This document shows, one piece after another, positions 370 to 18,879 of a DNA stretch of 64,000 nucleotides (the first letter of the stretch is position 1; every line of letters begins with the position of its first letter). Below the pieces are notes generated by a model. The model saw only the letters and a program-made list of their open reading frames with translations. It searched no databases and was not told the origin of the DNA. A program made the translations under genes and the position numbers. The DNA lies in contig NZ_CP065512.1 in the NCBI RefSeq assembly GCF_022811925.1, forward strand, positions 62,001-126,000, written 5' to 3'. Source of the DNA: Cytobacillus oceanisediminis. GTDB taxonomy: Bacteria > Bacillota > Bacilli > Bacillales > Cytobacillaceae.

Positions 370-531
370 ATGGTGAAGCTTGGATCTATCATCGTCCTTA
401 TCATCTTGATGGTAGTATTCTTTCTCGGATTAGCCGGGACGAATTTATTCAGCTCAGTCGGAAAAGCGGCTTTGCGAAAAAAAGAAAACATCAAAGAAAA
501 AGCAACGGAGGAATATAGACATGACAAATAG
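370..531 (+). CDS. single-pass membrane protein, unknown
   Basis: A 53-residue protein: a hydrophobic helix at about residues 5-27, then a short Lys/Glu-rich cytoplasmic tail. The start follows GGAGAAGGAG at 351-360. The stop overlaps the start of the SPFH gene by 11 bases, so the two are translationally coupled and probably act together. No family recognised. Confidence 0.65.
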   Translation: MVKLGSIIVLIILMVVFFLGLAGTNLFSSVGKAALRKKENIKEKATEEYRHDK

Positions 532-1357
532 ACCGTTTATTATCGGCGGAGGAATCGTTGGAGCCATCATTCTTGCTCTTGGAATCATTCTCCCAATGTT
601 CATTGAGAAAATCCCTACAGGATATGTAGGACTTGTGTATAGCCCATCAGGCGGAGTGAAGGATGAAACATTAAAGGAAGGCTGGCATGTGGTTGGACTG
701 TTCGATAAAGTCATTGAGTATCCTACCCGCCTCCAAACCGTATCTTATCACGATATGGTTCTATCAACTCAGGACGGCAAGAATATTAATGCCGACATTT
801 CCTACTCCTATAAAGTAGATCCCACAAAGGTTGTCAGCATCTTTAAAGAGTTTGGAAACATATCTGTTACAGATATTGAGTCCGGCTACCTTGAAAAGCG
901 TATGTTGGCTGCTGCCCGTGCTGCGGTATCAAACTATGATCTGTTGGGCATTTATGGAGCAGATTCATCTGAAGCAGGGCTTGATATTCAAAAGAGATAC
1001 GAGGAAGACGTTAAGCGCCTGGGCTTTATGGTTTCAGATGTAACACTTGGAGCACCTAAACCTGACAAAAATACACAAGCTGCTATTGATTCCAGAATCA
1101 AAGCTTCTCAGGAAACAGAAAAGAAAAAGATTGAGCTTGAAAACGAGAAAATTGAAGCCGAAAAGAAACGTGTCGTTGCTGAAGGTGAAGCCAAGAAGAA
1201 ATTGATTGAAGCGGAAGCCGAAGCAAAAGCGAACAATATTGTCGCTCAATCCATCACACCGGAGCTGCTTCAAAAAATTGAGGCAGAAGCACGTAAACAG
1301 CACGGCTGGGTAACAGTGAAGACAGGCGAGGTTATTGTCGATGCTGACAAGAAATGA
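521..1357 (+). CDS. SPFH/prohibitin-family membrane protein
   Basis: 278 residues. An N-terminal membrane helix (about 8-28) is followed by a Band 7/prohibitin domain (about 30-180) and a charged coiled coil rich in Ala, Glu and Lys (about 185-245), the usual prohibitin order. SPFH proteins form ring- or cage-like membrane scaffolds and often regulate proteases; the role on a replicon is unknown. It overlaps the small membrane gene in front and the unknown gene behind, so three gene products may be made together. The family call is firm and the function is open. Confidence 0.85.
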   Translation: MTNRPFIIGGGIVGAIILALGIILPMFIEKIPTGYVGLVYSPSGGVKDETLKEGWHVVGLFDKVIEYPTRLQTVSYHDMVLSTQDGKNINADISYSYKVDPTKVVSIFKEFGNISVTDIESGYLEKRMLAAARAAVSNYDLLGIYGADSSEAGLDIQKRYEEDVKRLGFMVSDVTLGAPKPDKNTQAAIDSRIKASQETEKKKIELENEKIEAEKKRVVAEGEAKKKLIEAEAEAKANNIVAQSITPELLQKIEAEARKQHGWVTVKTGEVIVDADKK

Positions 1358-1822: not shown

Positions 1823-2041
1823 ATGGCACTTACAGAAAAGAGAATTGCAAATATCATTGCACTTAATATCATGAAGGCGGAAACGGTGGCGGCTGACCAC
1901 ACCGAAAAGGGAAATACCTATGAAGCAGATATACAATACGCCATTTCAGCATCTTTAAGAAATTTGGCTTCAGAGCTCGGGGTTAAAAACGATTACTTTG
2001 ATTGTTTCCTGAAGCAGCTGCAAGGGGTGGATTGTGAGTGA
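1823..2041 (+). CDS. hypothetical protein, first gene of Ubl operon
   Basis: 72 residues, mostly helical, with no recognised family. AAGGGGAGGG lies about 9 bases before the ATG. Its stop overlaps the GTG start of the next gene in a GTGA arrangement. It heads the operon that leads to the E2/Ubl/E1 cassette, which is the only clue to its job. Confidence 0.65.
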   Translation: MALTEKRIANIIALNIMKAETVAADHTEKGNTYEADIQYAISASLRNLASELGVKNDYFDCFLKQLQGVDCE

Positions 2042-2436
2042 GGCCCACACTTCATGGAATTAACCGCCTATCAAATGTAACCGTTGAAAAGGTATTGACC
2101 GAAAAAATTAACATTCAAGGGCTTATTAATACTTTGGAGGCCAACCGGGATAAAGCTATTCCGGAAGACTGGTCTCAACATTTCCAAGTTATTTCTACTG
2201 TATATACCCATATGTTCACAGATGGAGAACTGCCGCCTGATTTAGTCCGGGGTCTTGACTACAGCTACTTAGAAATGGCGCAGGAAGGGCTGGATCATGA
2301 ATTGGATATCCTAATGGCTGGTCCAAAGCAAATGGACGGCAGGATCTACTATTACGAATACGCCCGAAGTTTGGCTGTAGAGAAACAGGCTTCCGAACTG
2401 AAAGAACACCTGGATGAGGATAGTGACTTTATATGA
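2038..2436 (+). CDS. hypothetical protein
   Basis: 132 residues, acidic and helical. It starts with GTG overlapping the previous stop and ends by overlapping the next ATG, so it is translationally coupled on both sides. No family recognised. In PRTRC cassettes the accessory genes (E, F and others) occupy this position, but I see no similarity that would assign it. Confidence 0.65.
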   Translation: MRPTLHGINRLSNVTVEKVLTEKINIQGLINTLEANRDKAIPEDWSQHFQVISTVYTHMFTDGELPPDLVRGLDYSYLEMAQEGLDHELDILMAGPKQMDGRIYYYEYARSLAVEKQASELKEHLDEDSDFI

Positions 2437-3098
2437 TTGGGAACTTTTCTGTTGAATCGGTAAAGGCAGCACTGGTTTATGAGGCATACACCAAGGCCCA
2501 CGATGAAATCAGTCAATATAAAGATGACAAGGTTCCTGTCAGGGAGATAGATTGGTTTGATTATGAGGATGAAGCCCGCCACATGATTGGGAGCAATTAT
2601 TACCGTTATGAAATTCTGGAGCAGCTATGCGCCTTGATCCAGATGGAAAAGCCGGACGAAGAATATCGTCAAGTAATTGAAAATATAGACGAGAATATGA
2701 GGGAAGTTGGTTTTAGCATCGAGATAGCTGGCCTATTTTACTTCCGAACCCTTTTTGAGAATCTTCACTGGTTTACTTCAAACGAGAGACTGGTGTGGCT
2801 TACAAAAATGGAAGAATTGTTCTCAAGTTTCAATTTGGAACATTGCCAGTGCTATCTAGGGTTTTATGAAAGCAATTTCAAAACCCAATTTTTTGATGGT
2901 GGCCATCCATTTTTCTCCCGATTTTCTGAGCACATGAAATATACGTATGTGTTTACCTACGATAATTTTGATTCATTTGAAGATATGGGGCCTGAATTTA
3001 TAGGAAGGTTTGTGAAATTTGCTTTGAGCTTTTTAGAGTTTAATAAGGAACTAATGCTTGAACTAAATGAAAAGAGGCAGGTGAAGATTGGTGCTTAA
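2433..3098 (+). CDS. hypothetical protein
   Basis: 221 residues, acidic, rich in aromatic residues (many Phe and Tyr from about residue 100 on), no transmembrane helix. It starts in an ATGA overlap with the gene before. No recognised domain. Confidence 0.65.
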   Translation: MIGNFSVESVKAALVYEAYTKAHDEISQYKDDKVPVREIDWFDYEDEARHMIGSNYYRYEILEQLCALIQMEKPDEEYRQVIENIDENMREVGFSIEIAGLFYFRTLFENLHWFTSNERLVWLTKMEELFSSFNLEHCQCYLGFYESNFKTQFFDGGHPFFSRFSEHMKYTYVFTYDNFDSFEDMGPEFIGRFVKFALSFLEFNKELMLELNEKRQVKIGA

Positions 3099-3699
3099 TA
3101 AAATTTCTGTTCATGATGTAAGGAACAAACTTACCTCATATATCATTTGCTCCAAATATGAAATTGACGATATGAATCAGATTATGCTTGATGATGCCAT
3201 TTATGAGGAAGATGACGAAAGGATTGTCAGGCCGTCTTATGAACTGATGGACCAGCTCTTTCCTTTCGAATATGAAGAAATTATCGTGCCAGATAAGCTA
3301 TATGAGGATTTGTCTGATGGATGTTTCTACTATATTAACGCAGCTATTTTCGTGCCTGGTATCCTTCCCTTGTTAAAGGATGATAATTTCGTTGAAAGAC
3401 TTACGGTATCTAACCAAGGGGGCTGCGGTCATTCATTGGAATTTGTGTATCTGCCAACCTCTGATTTTTCAGGTTTTGCTGACACGGAGGAAGATATTGA
3501 GATTTATCAGAATTTCGGCAATCAGGAAGGGTGCTTCATACTTGCAATCCAAGATGAAGGCTACCACCAGGAACACGATTATATGAATTTCTATATGGAA
3601 GTAAGGGCTTTGGGCCTGTATATTTCCAAGATGATTAAAGAGCATACAGCGGTCAAGCCTGCAGCGCAGCAAAAGGAAAGGGGAGTATTAGTAGCATGA
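3091..3699 (+). CDS. hypothetical protein upstream of E2-like gene
   Basis: 202 residues from a GTG at 3091, overlapping the gene before by 8 bases; TTG at 3088 is possible. The protein is acidic with a GGCGHS segment near residue 110. I looked for a JAB (de-ubiquitinating) motif, because PRTRC-A proteins carry one, and found no HxHP signature. Its stop overlaps the next ATG, so it is made together with the E2-like protein. Confidence 0.65.
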   Translation: MLNKISVHDVRNKLTSYIICSKYEIDDMNQIMLDDAIYEEDDERIVRPSYELMDQLFPFEYEEIIVPDKLYEDLSDGCFYYINAAIFVPGILPLLKDDNFVERLTVSNQGGCGHSLEFVYLPTSDFSGFADTEEDIEIYQNFGNQEGCFILAIQDEGYHQEHDYMNFYMEVRALGLYISKMIKEHTAVKPAAQQKERGVLVA

Positions 3700-4436
3700 T
3701 ACAAATCACTTTAGGGGATGAAAGCCTGCCACGCGTTCGATATCAAAAGAATGGCATGGAGCGGGATTTTGAAATAGACCACAACACGCTTTTTGAGTTC
3801 ATTGAGCAAAATTGCTATGAGAAGAGTGTAAGCAGAAAGAAATTGGACCTGCCTGTTTTTGAAACGCCAGCCCTACCTGTAGGTACCGTAAAATATATGG
3901 CTATGCCAGACGGTAAAGTAGCATTATTCATGGAAAAGAAGGCATTCAGCCACGACATCAATTACCATGGGACTGTTTTCAAGGAAGTACCGCTTCCGAA
4001 TCTATTGTTCATGTTTACTTTCGTTCCAAACCAGGATGGAAGCTTTAAGCTGACAGCCAAAAAAGTCTTTACATTCAAAGGGACTGTGCTTAGAGAAGAC
4101 ACGGAGCTATTCAGATGGCCTTTTGCCCATGTCTATGCAGATGGAGGGATGTGTTTCCACTTTCAAAGTGATTATAAGGATCTTGTACAGCTATCTACAT
4201 TTGTCCATCATTGGCTAAATGCAGAATTTACCGATCACTTTTACCATGGCGAAGGAGTCGGCAGGAATTACTGGGGCAAAACCCAAAGAGAAATTTTTAC
4301 CGAGATCCAAGGAAAGAAATCATTTGAATATGAGCAGCTAGTAACTGCTGAGCAAACCATGGCCAAACTTGTCAAGCAACTGGTAAACGGCTATTTTCCG
4401 GAAGAACTACAAATTGAAGAAGAAGAGGGGAATTAA
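3696..4436 (+). CDS. E2-like protein, PRTRC-B / Prok-E2 type
   Basis: 246 residues. The segment at 141-155 (WPFAHVYADGGMCFHF region) has the layout of a ubiquitin-conjugating E2 active site, where an HPN-like turn is followed by a DG pair and a Cys; here the candidate catalytic residue is Cys153. PRTRC-B proteins are predicted in the literature to have this E2-like fold and to sit beside a Ubl and a ThiF/E1, exactly the neighbourhood seen here (Ubl 3 bases downstream, E1 next). The stop-start overlap with the preceding gene adds that unknown protein to the unit. The family call rests on the motif and the context; catalytic activity is inferred. Confidence 0.7.
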   Translation: MIQITLGDESLPRVRYQKNGMERDFEIDHNTLFEFIEQNCYEKSVSRKKLDLPVFETPALPVGTVKYMAMPDGKVALFMEKKAFSHDINYHGTVFKEVPLPNLLFMFTFVPNQDGSFKLTAKKVFTFKGTVLREDTELFRWPFAHVYADGGMCFHFQSDYKDLVQLSTFVHHWLNAEFTDHFYHGEGVGRNYWGKTQREIFTEIQGKKSFEYEQLVTAEQTMAKLVKQLVNGYFPEELQIEEEEGN

Positions 4437-4439
4437 ATC

Positions 4440-4967
4440 ATGACAGATAAAGACAAAAACCAATTGGACTTATTCGGAAACCTAGATACAAACAACAGCA
4501 ACCTATGGGGAACAGCAGGAAGCTCAGATCCGTTCGGAAGCACAGGAAACGATGATCCATTTGCAGGCATCCCCTTTCCTGAGCCGCCAAAGGCAGAAGA
4601 GAAGCTTGCCTCGACTTTAGCTGCCGTTATTCCGATCAAGCCAGGCGCTGATAAAGCAGAACCCGTCAAAAATGAGGATAAGAAGACAGAAACAGCAAAG
4701 GCTCCTGATAAAAATGACAAGAAAACAGCTGCTAAAGCAACCTCCAAAGATAAGAAAAAGAAAAAGGAAGACATCCAGGTAGATGAGTCCTGGACGGTTG
4801 CTTATGCAGGCAATCAGCTTAGCCCTTCAAGGCCAATGAAACTGGAGGAATTGCGTGAGGAGCTGGAACTGGACTATCCAGAATTATCAAAGGAACGTAC
4901 TCGAATGGAAGCTAATGAAGAACGAAAATTAGTCGTGCCAATCGTTTCTGGCGCGAAGAACGGGTGA
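4440..4967 (+). CDS. ubiquitin-like protein with disordered N-tail (PRTRC-C like)
   Basis: 175 residues. Residues 1-115 are low complexity, first Asn/Gly/Pro rich and then Lys/Asp/Ala rich. Residues 116-175 resemble the small PRTRC-C ubiquitin-like domain: a short beta start, an LEELRxExxxxYPEL helix, a final strand VVPIV and the C-terminal SGAKNG. PRTRC-C proteins are usually only about 70 residues and end near GTKG, so the N-terminal extension is unusual. A terminal Gly fits activation by the E1 encoded 4 bases downstream. The Ubl call is from pattern and context. Confidence 0.65.
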   Translation: MTDKDKNQLDLFGNLDTNNSNLWGTAGSSDPFGSTGNDDPFAGIPFPEPPKAEEKLASTLAAVIPIKPGADKAEPVKNEDKKTETAKAPDKNDKKTAAKATSKDKKKKKEDIQVDESWTVAYAGNQLSPSRPMKLEELREELELDYPELSKERTRMEANEERKLVVPIVSGAKNG

Positions 4968-4971
4968 TTAT

Positions 4972-5781
4972 ATGAAGCCAATCGAATTTTTCCCAAACAG
5001 AAAGATCCATTTTGATATTGTTCAGATAGGCTGCGGAGGAAACGGAGGGTATATAACGCAGAGGCTGGCTAAACTGCTGGCCTCTCTTTCCTTTAATTCT
5101 GACCATTCCACCTTCAGCTATACCCTTGTCGATCAGGACCAAGTTGAAGAAAAGAATCTTCAGCGGCAGCCATTCCTCCCGCATGATGAAGGAAAAAATA
5201 AGGCAAAGGTGCTTGCTGGAAGATACGGGAAAGCCTATCAATTCCCTATCTTTTATCGTGAAGAATACGTGGAGAGCATCCAGGAGCTGAGAAATTGCTT
5301 TCCATCTAATCATGCAACATATGTATTGGACTCAAACCGCATCCTGTTCCGAATCTTAATTGGAGCTGTCGATAACAATGCATCAAGGAAGGTCATGCAT
5401 AAATACTTTCTTGAGGACTCCAGCCTGATTTACATAGATTGCGGAGTCGATGGAATATTGAGAAAGGGCACAGCAGAAGAAAAGCGCAAGTCAGGTTACA
5501 GCGGTCATTGTGTCACAGGCATTCATTACAACGATACTATGCTTGCCCCTGTAGCCGGTGTTTACAAAGACATTTTGAAAGATAAAAAGAGCAAGCTTCC
5601 TACACAGAGCTGCGGTCTCAATATCGTGTCGCAACCCCAGCGCATGCAGGCTAATGAAATGGCAGCCCTTGTGACAATGGGTTACCTCACCCAAATTATT
5701 GCGGAAAGAAGACTCTATTCCCATTACACCAACTTTAATAGCTTAACTCATACCATGAGACCAACATTGCTGCCAGCTTAA
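4972..5781 (+). CDS. E1-like ThiF-family adenylating enzyme (PRTRC ThiF)
   Basis: 269 residues. It has the E1/MoeB/ThiF nucleotide-binding fold: GCGGNGG at 20-26, the acidic loop DQDQVEEKNLQRQ at 54-66 with the Arg that contacts ATP, and GAVDNNASR at 131-139. Cys214 in the QSCG segment is the best candidate for the thioester Cys. E1-like enzymes adenylate the C-terminal Gly of a ubiquitin-like or sulfur-carrier protein; the Ubl is encoded just upstream. There is no rhodanese or other added domain. It is followed 13 bases later by a PP-loop gene with its own AAGGAGG. Confidence 0.85.
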   Translation: MKPIEFFPNRKIHFDIVQIGCGGNGGYITQRLAKLLASLSFNSDHSTFSYTLVDQDQVEEKNLQRQPFLPHDEGKNKAKVLAGRYGKAYQFPIFYREEYVESIQELRNCFPSNHATYVLDSNRILFRILIGAVDNNASRKVMHKYFLEDSSLIYIDCGVDGILRKGTAEEKRKSGYSGHCVTGIHYNDTMLAPVAGVYKDILKDKKSKLPTQSCGLNIVSQPQRMQANEMAALVTMGYLTQIIAERRLYSHYTNFNSLTHTMRPTLLPA

Positions 5782-5794
5782 GGAGGTCATTTAA

Positions 5795-6718
5795 ATGGCT
5801 TTTAACGAGGTTGATAGTCCAGTATCCATGTTTAATCTGAATGTAAAACTGGATATTGTACCAGAACCCAACCCGCTTGATATTTTTCTGAGGGACTATG
5901 CGGAGCGTATGACTATCCCTCTTCCGGAAGAAATGGATTCAATTGAAGACTATGATCAGATACATTGCAATTTTAGCGGGGGCAAGGACAGCATTGCGCT
6001 TGTCTTGCTTCTCTTATATGGCTATAAAGTGCCAAAGGAGAAGCTTGTTCTCGTGCATATGCGGGTAGATGGGCCAGAAGAGAAAAAGGCCTTCTTTGAT
6101 TGGAAAGAAACGGATGAGTATCTCAAATATTGTTCAGGGAAGCTTGGCATTCCTCTTATTATGCTGTCATCGGATATTAGTTTAAAAGAGCGGATTGAAA
6201 TGAGGGGCATGTGGCCTTCAAGCGCTATGCAGTTCTGTACAAGTTATTTAAAAAGGGACGTCTATAGTAAATGGGCCAGATCACTAGGTTCCGGAAAATA
6301 CCTGTGTGTGAGCGGAGAAAGGGCTGAAGAGAGCTCCAGACGGGCGAAAAAGAAAGTCTTTGAGACTTATAAACATGCCAACGCCCCCACCAAAAAGCGT
6401 TACGTGGATTGGCTTCGCCCTGTCCATCACCTTCTGGAAACAGAAGTTTGGGAGTTAATGAGATTGGCAGGCATTGATCCTCATCCTTGTTATGAGTATG
6501 TGTCCCGGTGCAGCTGTAAATTCTGTATATTCCTGTCGCCTGCAGAAATGGCAAAGGTCGCGGAATTGCACCCTCTTGACTTTAATGAATTGGTTGAAAT
6601 GGAAAAGCGCATGGGACACACCATGAGGTACGAAAAAAAGAACCCTGTTTCGCTGTTGGACTTCGTTAAGAAAGGAGCACTGGATTTCAAATTTGATGAA
6701 AGACCTTGTGCTGTATAG
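5795..6718 (+). CDS. PP-loop ATPase, PAPS-reductase-like
   Basis: 307 residues. The PP-loop SGGKDS is at 61-66, GERAEES at 175-181 is typical of the PAPS reductase/DndC/phage group, and five Cys (148, 232, 239, 241, 244) suggest a metal or Fe-S site. Enzymes of this superfamily use ATP to adenylate a substrate and often insert sulfur. True PAPS reductase activity is unlikely without other sulfate-assimilation genes. Its place right after an E1/Ubl pair suggests that a Ubl thiocarboxylate could feed it sulfur, which is an inference. Confidence 0.75.
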   Translation: MAFNEVDSPVSMFNLNVKLDIVPEPNPLDIFLRDYAERMTIPLPEEMDSIEDYDQIHCNFSGGKDSIALVLLLLYGYKVPKEKLVLVHMRVDGPEEKKAFFDWKETDEYLKYCSGKLGIPLIMLSSDISLKERIEMRGMWPSSAMQFCTSYLKRDVYSKWARSLGSGKYLCVSGERAEESSRRAKKKVFETYKHANAPTKKRYVDWLRPVHHLLETEVWELMRLAGIDPHPCYEYVSRCSCKFCIFLSPAEMAKVAELHPLDFNELVEMEKRMGHTMRYEKKNPVSLLDFVKKGALDFKFDERPCAV

Positions 6719-6734
6719 AAGGGAGAAATGGATA

Positions 6735-7337
6735 TTGTTAATTGAGTGGAAACTTGTTGAAGCGAATAAATGGGTAGGGAAAGTAGGTCCCTCCGACTTC
6801 GTTATTGTCATTATTAATCCTTTAGAAAACGGAAAATATGAACTGAAATATATTGATGCCCCTTTTGATAATGTCAAGGATTATGAAATTGAAAACATCG
6901 TAACTAAATATGGTTTATCTCCAGAAGACCAAGAACAGATCGCTCTAAAACTGTTCGATACTTATTACGGTGAATATGAATGGATTTTAGTATGCGACAG
7001 CAGGGATGAGCTGGTACAAGAACTTCTAGGAGGCACTTCATTTGATATCACTCTATTAAAGGATTTAAAAGAGCCACAAGAACAGAAGTCCTTCTCTCTC
7101 AGCACAGAACATGTTTATGACCTTTGGGACGACAATGATGGTAATCTGGCTTACCTATTTACGGACTCGCCCCCAGATGAAATGAACTCACATGTTGGGG
7201 AATTTATTAATAAGTCTAGAAATGAATCGAAAGAAGAAATTGACCCGAATGACTTTCTTGACTGGCTGCGCACGGAGAAAGATGTTCAGGTCATCGTAGT
7301 GAACAGGCCGAATAATGGCATTAATTTGAATCCATAA
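6735..7337 (+). CDS. hypothetical protein
   Basis: 200 residues from TTG at 6735, chosen because AAGGGAG at 6719-6725 sits 9 bases before it; the in-frame ATG at 6696 lies inside the preceding gene with no binding site. The protein is acidic and has no recognised domain. It is the last gene of the Ubl/E1/PP-loop operon and ends at a terminator. Confidence 0.65.
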   Translation: MLIEWKLVEANKWVGKVGPSDFVIVIINPLENGKYELKYIDAPFDNVKDYEIENIVTKYGLSPEDQEQIALKLFDTYYGEYEWILVCDSRDELVQELLGGTSFDITLLKDLKEPQEQKSFSLSTEHVYDLWDDNDGNLAYLFTDSPPDEMNSHVGEFINKSRNESKEEIDPNDFLDWLRTEKDVQVIVVNRPNNGINLNP

Positions 7338-7762: not shown

Positions 7763-7804
7763 TGCCTAATTTTTAAATTTTGCCCAAAAAAAGATGCCGA
7801 CCCA

Positions 7805-7869: not shown

Positions 7870-10320
7870 ATGCTTGAAACAGTTGAAGAAACCATCAAAC
7901 ACATTGAGGATCACGAAAGGGAGAGAATATTAATGAACGTAAATCAATTCGATCAGCTATTAAAAAGAGTCAATTTTGAAGATAGCACAGAAGTTAAACA
8001 CCAAATGCTTTCAGTTATTGAAGGATATTTAAAAAGTCTTGCAGGCGGGTCGGCAGCTGCTCAGGAAACGCAGGTAAAGGTGGAGGAATTAAAGCTTGAA
8101 AACACAACACCTTCTGCAGAACCGGCAGTAGAGGCAGTAGCGGAAGAAAAGCCCCTGGTTGAACAAATCCCTCCTATAGAGGAAGTTTCGGTTGAAGCGA
8201 CGGAAGAGCCGGTACAACCGGAAGAGCCAAAAGCAGAGGCTTTGATTAGCGAATCAACCTTAGCCGTAGATGAATCAGGGCAAGGAGCATTTGACCTTGG
8301 CGAAGTCGAAACCGTTAAGGATGTATCTGCAGAAAAACCTGTTGAAGGAGTAAGGGAAGATACACCAGCTGAAATAGCAGAAATCCCATCTCCTGGAGAT
8401 GAAAAAGTTTATGTTGAAAATTTTGGCCTTCCTTCCACAACGAAAGAAGAACAGCTTGAGGTGTTGAAGGAAAAGGGCGGAGTTATCTTTAGGGACAAAC
8501 GTTCCTATATGCTTTCCTTAAGCCTGGATGATGAAATACTGGCCCTTGCAAAAACACAGAAGATTGAGGAATTCCCTTCTGATATCCGTGCCCACTTAAA
8601 GGCAGGTAAATTCGTTACCGTCGATGTCCTTGAAATTGGCAAGGTAGAGGTAAAAGGAAGATCTCGCAATGTCGATGTAATGTTCAAGAACTTCCAGAAG
8701 CTTAGCGATGATAGTTGGATTGCTAAGAACATCCTCAATCTGCTTGAAAAGGGTGAAGTCCCTGAGCATGCGAAAGAAAAAGAGGTAGCTCCCGTTCAAG
8801 AAGCTCAAACAGAAGAGGCCCCTAACCTTGTGACAACGTTCATGATTAATCCGAATCTAGTTGTGCAATTCAAGGACCACAAGGAAGCCATTAAACAGCA
8901 GCGCTTTGCCGTTGTTTCTCAAGATGGCACTGCGAAGCTGTTTACACAAAACGGCAGCGGCCAAACGATTACGGTTGGATTGAATGAAAAGGCTACGTTC
9001 AAGGATGGCACGTTCTATGTGACTATCGCAGATTATGAACTAAAAGAAGCTGAAGGTAAGACTTTTGCAGAAATCAAATTGCTTATGGCAGATGGAACTG
9101 AAGCTTCCCAGCCACAGACTGAGGAAGCAAAGGAAACACCTGCGGAGCCTGCCAAAGAAGAAAAGCATGAAGCTTTAGCAGGAAAGAAAACGGATAACGT
9201 CATTGTTACACCACAAGGTGATGTCCCGTCTGATTTCCCGCAGACAAATAAACTGTCCCTTGAATTGCATCCATATGCAGAGGCGATGTTCAGCCTTGAA
9301 GCTGCCAAAGCAATGGTTGGCAAGCCTATTAACCTCGGGATCCTAACTCGTCCGGAAGAGAAGGAAAGCCGAATCTCTTTAATGCATGATGTATTCGAAA
9401 TGGCTACAACCAAGAATGTTTTAACAGCAGGAAGCATGCGCAATTCCAAATGGGTTGCCCGCTTAACAAACATTGATCTTATAGAAGATGCCCAGTCCAA
9501 ACGAAAATCTCTAGCTATTGAGTTTGATTACCTTGTTGAGTATCCTCAATTCACGTTTGAGCCAAAAGAGGATGTCCGCGATGTATTGGAATTCGTTCCA
9601 ATCACAGAACAGTCCTACACCCAGCGCCAGCTTCAAATTGGACAATCCCAAGAAGCATCATCTGCTGGAACGGCTGCCCAACCTTCACCAAGTGGAAATC
9701 AGGGAACAGTGACAAAGGAATATGATACAGCGGCAGGAACTCTTCTTGAGCCAACAGGGAACGCATCTGGTGCTTATCAGGAATTAACAGTTGATCCAAA
9801 CAAGAATGGTGCCGGGGCAATGCAAGAAATCAGCAGCCGTTCTGTTATGACTGCAGAAAATTCCCAGGGTGTCATGGAAAAAGCCAATCAGGCAATCTCG
9901 ACTATCATAAACAAGACTTTTACAGAAACAGGCATTCATGCGGTCACAGAAACAAAACAGGCTGCAACAACCGAAGTGGTTGGAAACCTGAAAGATGGAG
10001 CCGGAGAATTAACCGAAACTTCAACGGTTATTCAATTCATGACTGGCTATGCGCCTAACTCATGGGCTCAATCAATTGGAAAGAGAATTGAACTCCAGAG
10101 TGAGCTGTCCTTTGGAAATGGTCCCGTTACACATAAAACGGTCTCCATGATGGGCAAAAATGGAGCACCTGTGGCACAAGGGCAAGTGCCAATGAATGAA
10201 GCGCTTCTGATGGACGGCAAACATCATTCTGCTGTTATTCAAGGGATCGAAGGAGCTCAGCAAAACGGGAATGTCTTTATTGTTTCCATGCGCTTAGGTG
10301 ATTTTACAAAAGTAGCTTAA
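7870..10320 (+). CDS. large acidic modular protein, unknown
   Basis: 816 residues from ATG 7870 (GAAGGGAG 8 bases upstream); an in-frame ATG at 7933 behind AAAGGGAG is a good alternative start. Layout: helical N-terminus, a Glu/Pro/Ala-rich linker (about 70-165), a folded segment of about 115 residues, a second Glu-rich linker, another beta-rich segment of about 80 residues, a linker near 440-460, then a long C-terminal part of about 350 residues. No signal peptide, transmembrane helix or enzyme motif. The alternation of compact segments with acidic linkers suggests a scaffold or a DNA-mimic type of protein, which is speculation. It has its own TACGTT-class promoter, so it is probably expressed with the replication genes. 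Confidence 0.7.
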   Translation: MLETVEETIKHIEDHERERILMNVNQFDQLLKRVNFEDSTEVKHQMLSVIEGYLKSLAGGSAAAQETQVKVEELKLENTTPSAEPAVEAVAEEKPLVEQIPPIEEVSVEATEEPVQPEEPKAEALISESTLAVDESGQGAFDLGEVETVKDVSAEKPVEGVREDTPAEIAEIPSPGDEKVYVENFGLPSTTKEEQLEVLKEKGGVIFRDKRSYMLSLSLDDEILALAKTQKIEEFPSDIRAHLKAGKFVTVDVLEIGKVEVKGRSRNVDVMFKNFQKLSDDSWIAKNILNLLEKGEVPEHAKEKEVAPVQEAQTEEAPNLVTTFMINPNLVVQFKDHKEAIKQQRFAVVSQDGTAKLFTQNGSGQTITVGLNEKATFKDGTFYVTIADYELKEAEGKTFAEIKLLMADGTEASQPQTEEAKETPAEPAKEEKHEALAGKKTDNVIVTPQGDVPSDFPQTNKLSLELHPYAEAMFSLEAAKAMVGKPINLGILTRPEEKESRISLMHDVFEMATTKNVLTAGSMRNSKWVARLTNIDLIEDAQSKRKSLAIEFDYLVEYPQFTFEPKEDVRDVLEFVPITEQSYTQRQLQIGQSQEASSAGTAAQPSPSGNQGTVTKEYDTAAGTLLEPTGNASGAYQELTVDPNKNGAGAMQEISSRSVMTAENSQGVMEKANQAISTIINKTFTETGIHAVTETKQAATTEVVGNLKDGAGELTETSTVIQFMTGYAPNSWAQSIGKRIELQSELSFGNGPVTHKTVSMMGKNGAPVAQGQVPMNEALLMDGKHHSAVIQGIEGAQQNGNVFIVSMRLGDFTKVA

Positions 10321-12918: not shown

Positions 12919-13255
12919 AAATTGCTCAGTCAGGGTATTGAGCAATACATACCTTTGTGTGTTTCCCCAAAAAGTTTACAGGCTGCAGCTGTATTCATCG
13001 GAGGCATGTTCACAAAGGTACACACCTAAGAGATCAGCAGAGTAAGAGGGGCTTCCGTCTTGCCGGATATAAAGAGTGGCCACCAGCCCCGCCATGCTGC
13101 TTTAGTTTAATGGGCAAAATCACGTAATTCCGCATGGGTAGCTCCCAGCAGGGTAGTGGAACGGGGTTCAAATCCCCGAAGCGGCTTAACACCTTAGAAT
13201 TCACACAAACCAACTTAGATATCCACCACAAGCTGGGTCCGCTTTAGGGCCCAGC
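12919..13255 (+). ncRNA. candidate structured RNA region
   Basis: No gene longer than a few codons is convincing here, but base pairing is dense. Hairpin ATTGCTCA/TGAGCAAT at 12919-12944; a long-range pairing ACCTTTGTG (about 12950) with CACAAAGGT (about 13011); a branched element closed by GGGGCT/AGCCCC at about 13048-13089; the tRNA-like element at 13096-13185; and a final GCTGGG/CCCAGC hairpin at 13232-13255 without a U tract. It could be a leader of the small gene at 13279 or a separate RNA. Confidence 0.4.
13096..13185 (+). tRNA. tRNA-like element, anticodon arm not recognisable
   Basis: Acceptor arms GCTGCTT (13096-13102) and AAGCGGC (13179-13185) pair fully with one G-U. A D-arm GTTT/AAAT with the usual GGG in its loop follows at 13105-13120, and the T-arm CGGGG-TTCAAAT-CCCCG (13162-13178) is perfect. 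The 41 bases between D and T arms do not fold into a 5-bp, 7-base anticodon arm in any register I tried; they contain TGGG/CCCA and CCC/GGG pairings instead. No CCA is encoded. It may be a decayed tRNA, a tRNA with an insertion, or a tRNA mimic. Confidence 0.45.
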
Positions 13256-13661: not shown

Positions 13662-13735
13662 GAGGGCATAGTTTAACGGTAGAACAGAGGTCTCCAAAAC
13701 CTCCGGTGCGGGTTCGATTCCTGCTGCCTTTGCCA
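13662..13735 (+). tRNA. tRNA-Trp(CCA)
   Basis: Complete cloverleaf: acceptor GAGGGCA/TGCCTTT, D-arm GTTT..GAAC, anticodon arm GAGGT-CTCCAAA-ACCTC with anticodon CCA, T-arm GCGGG-TTCGATT-CCTGC, discriminator G and an encoded CCA end. Its arms closely match Bacillus tRNA-Trp as I know it. Confidence 0.92.
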
Positions 13736-17490: not shown

Positions 17491-18783
17491 TCAGTAGACC
17501 TCTTCTCCAATTTTATCCCACTCTTCGAATAGTTCCGCAATAGTGGAATGGTTAATGTCTGATTTTAGAAGAGGGGGGTGTTTCTGCTTACGTCTATCTT
17601 CCGAAATGACATCGAATCGTTCAAAGAAGGCTTCTTTTCTCTGTTCCTGGAATGCCTTCAGGTTGATGTCTCGATTCTCAAGCAGTCTTTTTTCAAACAG
17701 CTTATATAGGCCCTCGAGTGATTTATTGTCTTTTTCGGTTCTTGTTTTTAAGCGCTCAATGGTTTGGCCAATAAAGAGACTCTTCATAGGATCCTCTGTC
17801 TCTCGTTTTGCTGGACCGTCAAAACCAGCATAGTTATCCTCTAAGGCACTCATGATATAACCGGCTCTATTTTTGACTTCAAGTGAATCAAGGGAAAGGA
17901 CATATCTCAAATTGGCATCAACATACTGATAGTCATATTCATGTGCGACTTTTTCAGCTGCATCTCTCCGTATTCCTTGGCGGATTAATGTATGTATAAT
18001 CGATTCCATGTCTTCTCTGAGAGAGTCCAATTCAATTTGTGGCCGCTTAAATTTCTTGTTTTTATCGATGTAAAAAATAAATGACTCAATATTGCGGCCA
18101 GCTTTGCTGTGAACTTCATATTTGAATTCAATATCGGTCTTTTCTTTAAGTTCTGCTTTTGCTTTCTCCAGAACGGTTTTCCTGAAAACTTTCATTAGCT
18201 TCATTTTATCATCAGGTATGGAAAGCATTTTGCGTAGCTCATCAACCCTGATGATACGTTCTTTTTTCCATTCATACTCTTTTAAAAGCTCATAAATTCT
18301 CCAGGAATATTCACTGCTCAATCGGAGGACATTATAGAGCCTGTACTTTGCGTATTTTTCCAGGTTGAGAAGGTAACGGGCTAATCCATCTGAAAGCTGG
18401 ATGGTAATGCGGCCGGTTCCCATTTCATATCTTGCGTGCTGAACCCATTGAATTTTATCGATGATATCTTGTTTGCCATCATTAGAATGAATCACAAGCT
18501 GCTTGCCCATTAATCCGTCAATTGCATTTTGTACTTGTTTATATATGGCGTTTCCCTTATATTCTAGTAATTGAGCTAGGTCTTTAACGCCGATGACATA
18601 CTTTTTAAAGTCTTTATCGTCTGGTTGAACCAATGCGATTAAGGTATATATAATTCTTCGTTCTGTTATGGTCAGATCTTGAATAGCATTTATTAGAGTA
18701 GTAGATTGATTAACCCAGTAGGAGGGTTTAATATCGCCTTCGAATAGTGGTAATGACAACTGGTCAGATGAAACTTCAGCCAT
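17491..18783 (-). CDS. Rep_3-family replication initiator
   Basis: 430 residues from ATG 18783. The N-terminal 230 residues have the tandem winged-helix plan of RepB/Rep_3 initiators (for example the LTxxERRIIYTLIALVQ helix near 40-55 and YSWRIYELLKEY near 160). The C-terminal part is helical and charged. It reads away from a large iteron array, the normal arrangement for this family, and should bind the iterons to start replication. The AGGAGG is 13 bases before ATG 18783, rather far; an upstream ATG at 18807 would place the site inside the coding sequence, and ATT codons at 18795 or 18792 are possible rare starts. Confidence 0.88.
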   Translation of the reverse strand: MAEVSSDQLSLPLFEGDIKPSYWVNQSTTLINAIQDLTITERRIIYTLIALVQPDDKDFKKYVIGVKDLAQLLEYKGNAIYKQVQNAIDGLMGKQLVIHSNDGKQDIIDKIQWVQHARYEMGTGRITIQLSDGLARYLLNLEKYAKYRLYNVLRLSSEYSWRIYELLKEYEWKKERIIRVDELRKMLSIPDDKMKLMKVFRKTVLEKAKAELKEKTDIEFKYEVHSKAGRNIESFIFYIDKNKKFKRPQIELDSLREDMESIIHTLIRQGIRRDAAEKVAHEYDYQYVDANLRYVLSLDSLEVKNRAGYIMSALEDNYAGFDGPAKRETEDPMKSLFIGQTIERLKTRTEKDNKSLEGLYKLFEKRLLENRDINLKAFQEQRKEAFFERFDVISEDRRKQKHPPLLKSDINHSTIAELFEEWDKIGEEVY

Positions 18784-18879
18784 TGGGTAAATAATACCTC
18801 CTAACATCGAATCTTGTTTAATTGTATCGAAATATTAAGGAAAAATATAGAACTTTTTGCACTTTTAACATAACTGCAA

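Follow-up and report, generated by a model that had tools for sequence, protein, structure and literature searches.

A ubiquitin-like conjugation cassette on a Cytobacillus phage-plasmid and its possible tie to the DNA sliding clamp

In this paper we describe a cassette of three genes, encoding an E2-like protein, a ubiquitin-like protein (Ubl) and an E1-like enzyme of the ThiF family, in 64,000 nucleotides of DNA from Cytobacillus oceanisediminis. We call this whole stretch the window. It covers positions 62001-126000 of C2 (NZ_CP065512.1), a contig of 240,207 bases in a genome of 5.58 Mb and two contigs. Among the genes of C2 are those for a major head protein, a portal, a tail sheath and a baseplate protein, the first part of a gene for a terminase large subunit, and also genes for a ParM-like protein and a RepM-like replication protein (window 17491-18807, minus strand). 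Head, packaging and tail genes are found on one replicon with plasmid replication and partition genes, and C2 is a phage-plasmid judged by this gene content. The three cassette genes lie on the same strand with gaps of 3 and 4 bases, as a first-pass annotation had reported (Table 1), and a second cassette is found about 20 kb upstream, outside the window (C2:40791-46042).

The E2 matches the Pfam family Prok-E2_D (PF14460) with 27.9 bits against a gathering cut-off of 25, the family against which the first-pass annotation had proposed to check it. Its candidate catalytic residue Cys153, also named there, is invariant in all 18 aligned close homologs (window included) and forms a single column in 15/15 E2s drawn from both cassette types. 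The E1 matches Pfam ThiF (41.7 bits, cut-off 28.1), and its ATP-binding motifs are indeed intact: all 16 aligned E1s, that of the window among them, share G20, G22, G25, D54, D56, N62, Q66, K77, R84 and D134, and they also share Cys214. The Ubl has one core of about 62 residues, and a Gly is found at the Ubl boundary in all 33 mono-Ubl rows (near-copies included). At the level of sequence, the E1 ATP-site motifs and Cys, the E2 Cys and the C-terminal Gly of the Ubl are those of a conjugation system, and we consider it very probable that the three genes form an E1-E2-Ubl module. The Ubl itself has no family match above cut-off (ThiS reaches 14.1 bits, cut-off 22.5) and no NCBIfam match. Profile comparison matches the beginning of its core to the tandem Ubl from the second cassette (hhalign 90.7%, E 1.3e-6, 34 columns, the Gly not being reached). 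As a separate observation, residue 145 of the E2, eight residues before the catalytic Cys, is His in the window lineage and in L082 and Asn in 11 of the 15 aligned E2s; we take this position to be close to where the classical HPN motif has its Asn.

The core of the Ubl is preceded by a tail of 113 residues, of which 35% are charged and 16% hydrophobic; its disorder is judged from this composition only. The tail had been singled out earlier as unusual. It does look disordered, but tails like it are usual in the family, and it contains a motif that recurs among them. Passages in PMC11139829 and PMC12309361 describe the bacterial clamp-binding motif as QL(S/D)LF, or loosely QxxLF, located partly in disordered segments, with Hda as a precedent for such a motif in an N-terminal disordered stretch. 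The sequence QLDLF near the start of the window tail matches both forms. For an analysis of its recurrence we used 190 tails, 98 of them representatives (one per 70% identity cluster), and omitted L074 and tails of fewer than 15 residues from the shuffles. The pattern Qxx[LIM]F is found in 63 of the 98 tails, compared with a mean of 1.58 and a maximum of 7 in shuffles. With clustering at 50% identity it is found in 18 of 28 tails (shuffles mean 0.44, maximum 4), and at 40% identity in 8 of 14 (mean 0.18, maximum 2). The bare [LI]F is present in 91 of the 98 (mean 24.28, maximum 39). When redundancy is included, 121 of 192 Ubl tails have Qxx[LIM]F in their first 40 residues, compared with 8 of 431 other open reading frames (ORFs) of the same loci, a comparison set that may still contain some Ubls. 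That the Ubl tail binds DnaN, the sliding clamp, we rate as about even, with at most a slight lean in favour.

The genes found next to related cassettes point in the same direction. Relatives of the E2 occur in 20 of 192 other genomes of the same family (weakest E about 2e-5). In 13 of these 20 a DnaN gene lies 2.2-2.3 kb upstream of the E2 gene on the same strand, measured from match start to match start (G017, G027, G036, G045, G047, G048, G049, G054, G138, G153, G171, G175 and G186), and these genomes span six of eight genera. In G051, dnaX is found 2.9 kb downstream of the E2 gene (1.6 kb after the Ubl, same strand) and DnaN about 11 kb upstream, while G034 and G055 have dnaX 4.3 kb after the Ubl, again on the same strand. 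Relatives of the E1 are present on 77 plasmid records from several phyla, and we annotated 25 plasmid loci, a non-random selection from 50 listed of these 77 records. Seven of the 25 show the order Rad52-dnaN-X-Y-E2-UblJAB-E1, in which the Ubl is fused to a JAB domain and dnaN is upstream in the orientation of the cassette (L042, L068, L069 with L083, L077, L078, L081 and L082; Rad52 is unlabelled in L077), and in two others (L070, L071) dnaX directly follows E1. Genes X (about 113 amino acids, aa) and Y (about 150-257 aa) are found ahead of E2 in L041, L042, L066 and L077-L082, and those of them that were scanned match no family above cut-off. Large Bacillota plasmids commonly carry such cassettes, and the 77 plasmid records and 20 family genomes leave no room for the first-pass suggestion that the presence of such a cassette in a Bacillaceae-like replicon is new. 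Over the 193 genomes of the family the Ubl profile gave 11 matches compared with 21 for the E2, probably a consequence of the low scores that fused Ubls reach with that profile. A search of the E2 alignment against genome contigs returned 30 stretches, none of which was confirmed as a relative.

We interpret the window cassette as a Ubl conjugation module carried by a phage-plasmid, from a family on large Bacillota plasmids, which would most likely act at the DNA sliding clamp; we rate the chances of this reading as about even. Several observations weigh against it. The strict review pattern is found in only 6 of the 98 tails (shuffles mean 0.65, maximum 6). The commonest tail form is QTDIF, which looks weaker, its second residue being Thr and its fourth Ile; a QTSMAF peptide, according to a passage in PMC12309361, binds the clamp very weakly. 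Among nine lineage tails chosen by eye (WIN, L001, L022, L024, L038, P0019, P0023, P0032 and P0043), the first xDLF/xDFF site has its Gln in the window only (1/9), with xDLF or xDFF itself persisting and a separate QGNLF found at position 17 in L038. The loose pattern also occurs once each inside the window E2, the window E1 and a 525-aa protein of the second cassette. DnaN has no match on the replicon of the window, all DnaN matches of the genome being on C1, and in G034, G055, G060, G099, G181 and G185 neither dnaN nor, among the matches listed, dnaX was found within 10 kb of E2, G034 and G055 being the two that have dnaX 4.3 kb after the Ubl. The tails are homologous and many of the genomes are close kin, so the cases of motif and of dnaN linkage are not independent events. 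Finally, a search for solved structures by sequence gave nothing for the E2, the E1 and the Ubl-JAB protein at the thresholds used, and for the Ubl profile five weak matches (E 0.07 to 0.81; protein G, ribosomal L1 and TRAX), none of them convincing, so the folds of Ubl, E2 and E1 rest on profiles.

These points raise the question whether the clamp is needed at all. The cassette could be an E1-E2-Ubl conjugation system of the usual kind, carried by a mobile element and modifying host or phage proteins, with a tail motif that binds something else or is a leftover. The evidence from the E1, E2 and Ubl requires no clamp, the missing first-site Gln in close kin and the absence of dnaN from the replicon would be expected, and the window-lineage tails contain several [DN]-[LP]-F repeats (by eye). 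This explanation does not account for the recurrence of the motif near the start of distant tails, nor for the dnaN-X-Y-E2-UblJAB-E1 layout, and we regard it as possible but rather doubtful.

The role of the clamp is one question raised by the family; the origin of a Ubl encoded on its own is another. Of the 33 mono-Ubl rows (near-copies included), 21 come from Ubl-JAB proteins, in which the Ubl stands in front, and 15 of the 25 annotated plasmid loci have this fusion. The fused profile found at least 206 database proteins at E up to 1e-5, and the profile of the stand-alone Ubl found 41 at E up to 1e-3. The window Ubl gene ends at the conserved boundary Gly and has no JAB half. An E1 tree of 34 rows unites the nine cassettes that have a detected mono-Ubl but lack a JAB in a single clade (support 93/96; 91% of 200 bootstraps). 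The sister group of this clade is four cassettes with fused Ubl-JAB (82/79, weak). For the clade members L039, L065 and L064, the fused profile run over the whole replicon gave the Ubl only and no JAB. The simplest reading of these sequences is that the window clade lost the JAB half, with the break at the Gly. The labels of the tree were set by script, which labelled the fused L077 as 'poly' and missed the Ubl-like ORFs of the clostridial L045 and L073. These two loci have Ubl-like ORFs (by eye) and no nearby JAB and yet fall outside the JAB-less clade, which counts against the clamp-centred interpretation as well and means that JAB loss in one step is not proven. In one plasmid locus from Planococcus (L069:2100-3911), a group II intron maturase gene is located between E2 and Ubl-JAB, and the start of the Ubl-JAB gene is apparently shortened.

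The first-pass annotation saw no JAB peptidase, which is true within the 2.1 kb of the window cassette but limited to them, because the second cassette on the same replicon has one. The genes of that cassette encode a tandem Ubl with two repeats (113 aa), two further proteins (101 and 525 aa), an E2 (Prok-E2_D, 46.3 bits), a JAB and an E1. The JAB scores 23.9 bits with Prok-JAB in the protein scan (cut-off 25) and 25.8 in the genome search, and 34.4 with PRTRC_A (cut-off 101.8). Its close homologs, at 63-66% identity, are found beside E2 and E1 genes in G193, G194, G195 and the plasmid pAD3 (164-245 kb); none was found in the 54-kb fragment G196, so that four of these five relatives carry it. 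The tandem Ubl gene (L030:791-1132, C2:40791-41132) has two repeats here and four in each of L060, L061, L062, L063 and phage KLEB27-3 (L044), and every repeat ends in Lys-Gly. In this respect the gene looks like a polyubiquitin-type precursor. The tandem Ubl has neither a tail nor a Qxx[LIM]F-type motif. Two related loci show broken frames, which may reflect sequencing error or decay: the second-cassette E1 is split into two ORFs in L055 (2694-3624), and in L023 (near 8743-9220) the Ubl frame is shorter than in the near-identical L024.

If the clamp-directed interpretation of the window cassette is right, the following course of events can be proposed. From the conserved residues, the E1 would adenylate Gly175 of the Ubl, form a thioester through Cys214 and hand the Ubl to Cys153 of the E2. 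The motif, and the linkage to dnaN in relatives, suggest QLDLF as the site by which the flexible tail at the N-terminus would dock on DnaN. The Ubl would then be attached to proteins of the replication fork, or might tether the protein to which it is attached to the clamp. In the window clade the JAB half is missing, and the gene encodes a Ubl whose Gly is exposed from the start. For deconjugation, if there is any, the JAB of the second cassette would be the obvious candidate. The phage-plasmid could use the module to tune the replication of its own or of host DNA. For the family as a whole we suggest, tentatively and with somewhat less than even confidence, a bacterial clamp-directed Ubl system, in which the Ubl has its own DnaN-binding peptide, is often made as a Ubl-JAB precursor and is encoded in an operon together with a private sliding clamp. 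Giant phage-plasmids would have adopted a form without JAB and would operate it next to another cascade, of the poly-Ubl type, from which the JAB comes, and attachment of the Ubl would tie a protein to the replication fork.

Close relatives of the window cassette are found on IMG/VR contigs of 239, 245, 164 and 54 kb, and another is carried by pAD3, a plasmid of 220 kb from Bacillus velezensis. Common to all five are the genes at 2038-3699, the E2, Ubl and E1 genes and an 846-aa gene at 7780, and their order is kept. Across the cassette, three of these relatives have almost the same sequence, but the retained order indicates that the cassette is not a chance arrangement. The genes at 2038-3699 have no family above cut-off in library scans and are kept in these relatives, which bears out the earlier remark that unfamiliar genes are coupled upstream. 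We also considered whether they correspond to genes X and Y of the plasmid operons, and rejected this since hhalign probabilities do not exceed 2%; hhalign shows no relation between the 203-aa protein and gene Y, which has the same position in those operons. The block that contains the cassette (1823-7337) is flanked by terminator-like hairpins. Terminator-like matches number 12, compared with 5.3 in shuffles, so these bounds are suggestive only.

Table 1. Genes and other features of the block around the window cassette (window positions).
Feature	Start	End	Strand	Remarks
Terminator-like hairpin preceding the block	1773	1795	+	
72-aa protein, no assigned family	1823	2041	+	Homolog only in L001 among loci searched
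132-aa protein, no assigned family	2038	2436	+	Kept in five phage-plasmid relatives (three near-identical)
221-aa protein, no family above cut-off	2433	3098	+	Kept in the same five relatives
203-aa protein, no assigned family	3088	3699	+	Kept in the same five relatives
E2-like protein (Prok-E2_D), 246 aa	3696	4436	+	Predicted catalytic Cys153 at 4152-4154
Ubl, 175 aa	4440	4967	+	Disordered-looking tail 1-113; beta-grasp-like core 114-175 ending in Gly175
QLDLF, Ubl residues 8-12	4461	4475	+	Candidate DnaN (sliding clamp) binding motif
E1-like ThiF-family enzyme, 269 aa	4972	5781	+	Predicted catalytic Cys214 at 5611-5613
PAPS-reductase-like ATP pyrophosphatase	5795	6718	+	phrog_424; SspD-like
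214-aa protein, no assigned family	6693	7337	+	Last gene ahead of terminator-like site
Terminator-like hairpin following the block	7338	7355	+	

The gene that follows E1 after 13 bases suggests a different chemistry. It encodes a PAPS-reductase-like enzyme with similarity to SspD (64.2 bits), and one could imagine a sulfur relay in which the E1 makes a Ubl thiocarboxylate that, with this adjoining enzyme, thiolates DNA or tRNA in the manner of Urm1/Ncs6 or SspD. L041 has a gene 50% identical to it at a distance of 3.8 kb from E1, on the downstream side; in L066 the annotation places such a gene 2.2 kb downstream of E1. A homolog is absent from the fetched flanks of the five closest relatives, although each has an E2 with its Cys, and for this reason the PAPS-reductase-like gene, which we had considered as a core part, is probably not one. 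A sulfur relay therefore seems to us highly improbable.

Cassettes of this kind are known, and the window cassette can be compared with several of them. The first-pass annotation called it PRTRC-type. PRTRC cassettes (NCBIfam TIGR03735-TIGR03739) consist of an E2-like B, a Ubl C, a JAB A, a ThiF-family E1 and a ParM-like D, and the second cassette resembles them in A, B, C and ThiF, with a gene resembling D at a distance of 3 kb. A distant kinship thus stands, but the matches remain below the curated cut-offs: the window E1 reaches 72.0 of 144.75 bits with PRTRC_ThiF and the window E2 21.7 of 131.45 with PRTRC_B, and the tandem Ubl of the second cassette has 16.7 bits with PRTRC_C (cut-off 45.95) and 22.3 with Prok_Ub (cut-off 25). 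Pfam Prok_Ub searched over the genome itself gave no match, with the controls equally silent. PRTRC_parB has no match on the replicon, the matches of the genome being on C1 only and below cut-off. The window cassette further differs from PRTRC in the tail of its Ubl and in having no JAB of its own.

Operon types 6d and 6e, in the passages of PMC1779556 that treat them, share with our cassettes a small Ubl with a C-terminal Gly, an E2 with a Cys, an E1 and a JAB. The JAB is described there as separate or fused to the E1, with a Ubl-JAB fusion only in one phage tail (TAPI) protein, and these passages contain no dnaN linkage or clamp motif that we could find. From passages in PMC1779556 and PMC11354881, E1-E2-Ubl-JAB operons and repeated-Ubl proteins are already known, as are, from the former, the phage-tail fusion and proteins with one to three Ubl repeats. 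The jumbo phage vB_BauM_KLEB27-3 (OM634661) has an E2 (32%), a JAB (46%) and an E1 (42%) related to those of the second cassette in addition to its four tandem Ubls, and its cassette is closer to the second cassette than to the mono-Ubl cassette of the window. A bacterial Ubl with a clamp motif, a Ubl-dnaN operon and two cascades on one phage-plasmid were not recognised in the open-licence PMC literature searched, among the matches listed.

The likeness to Bil (BilABCD) raises the possibility of a Bil/Bub-type defence or of superinfection exclusion, in which the Ubl would tag the proteins of competing phages and spoil their assembly. The Ubl, E2, E1 and JAB are Bil parts (PMC11354881), and PADLOC gives weak E1-E2 matches (best 26.3 bits). 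According to the same source there is a pair of Ubl domains in BilA and a pair of adenylation domains in BilD, whereas the window Ubl has a single core and the 269-aa E1 is too short for the double-adenylation-domain E1 of Bil; we thus rejected membership in Bil itself. Bub operons often have DNA-damage regulators, as stated in a passage of PMC13373217, and no regulator family was found among the block proteins scanned, a scan that did not run every protein against every library. The relatives of the cassette, moreover, are often placed among replication genes. A defence function therefore appears improbable.

C2 and the window have further features which we report as side observations. The terminase large subunit ORF (C2:11886-13586, L028) has an intein-like insert near its start, by eye directly after the Walker A region. 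A DNA polymerase III alpha-like gene (C2:50265-54890, L030) is found in two ORFs with a 281-aa ORF between them that looks by eye like a homing endonuclease. ARAGORN predicts an odd tRNA with a four-base anticodon (tccg) at window 13096-13186, and a tRNA-Trp is nearby at 13662. An SPFH/prohibitin-like gene (Band_7, 97 bits) lies at window 521-1357, and pAD3 has a similarly placed prohibitin-family gene.

We know of no established function for PRTRC-like Ubl cassettes. The candidate clamp motif of the tail, together with the operons in which relatives are joined to dnaN, offers a direct test of function. In eukaryotes the sliding clamp PCNA carries ubiquitin and SUMO marks. The analogy we propose is that of Ubl chemistry focused on a sliding clamp; the clamp and the Ubl differ, and shared ancestry is not claimed. 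A further parallel, to eukaryotic polyubiquitin genes, is the poly-Ubl that the second cassette encodes: its repeats resemble one another, and all have Lys-Gly at their ends. That many related systems are found beside clamp genes, and that the tag of the window cassette has near its start what looks like a clamp-binding motif, hints at a bacterial counterpart of the eukaryotic ubiquitin marks at the fork. If this is true, mobile elements of bacteria would, like eukaryotes with PCNA, modify replication forks by means of Ubl proteins.

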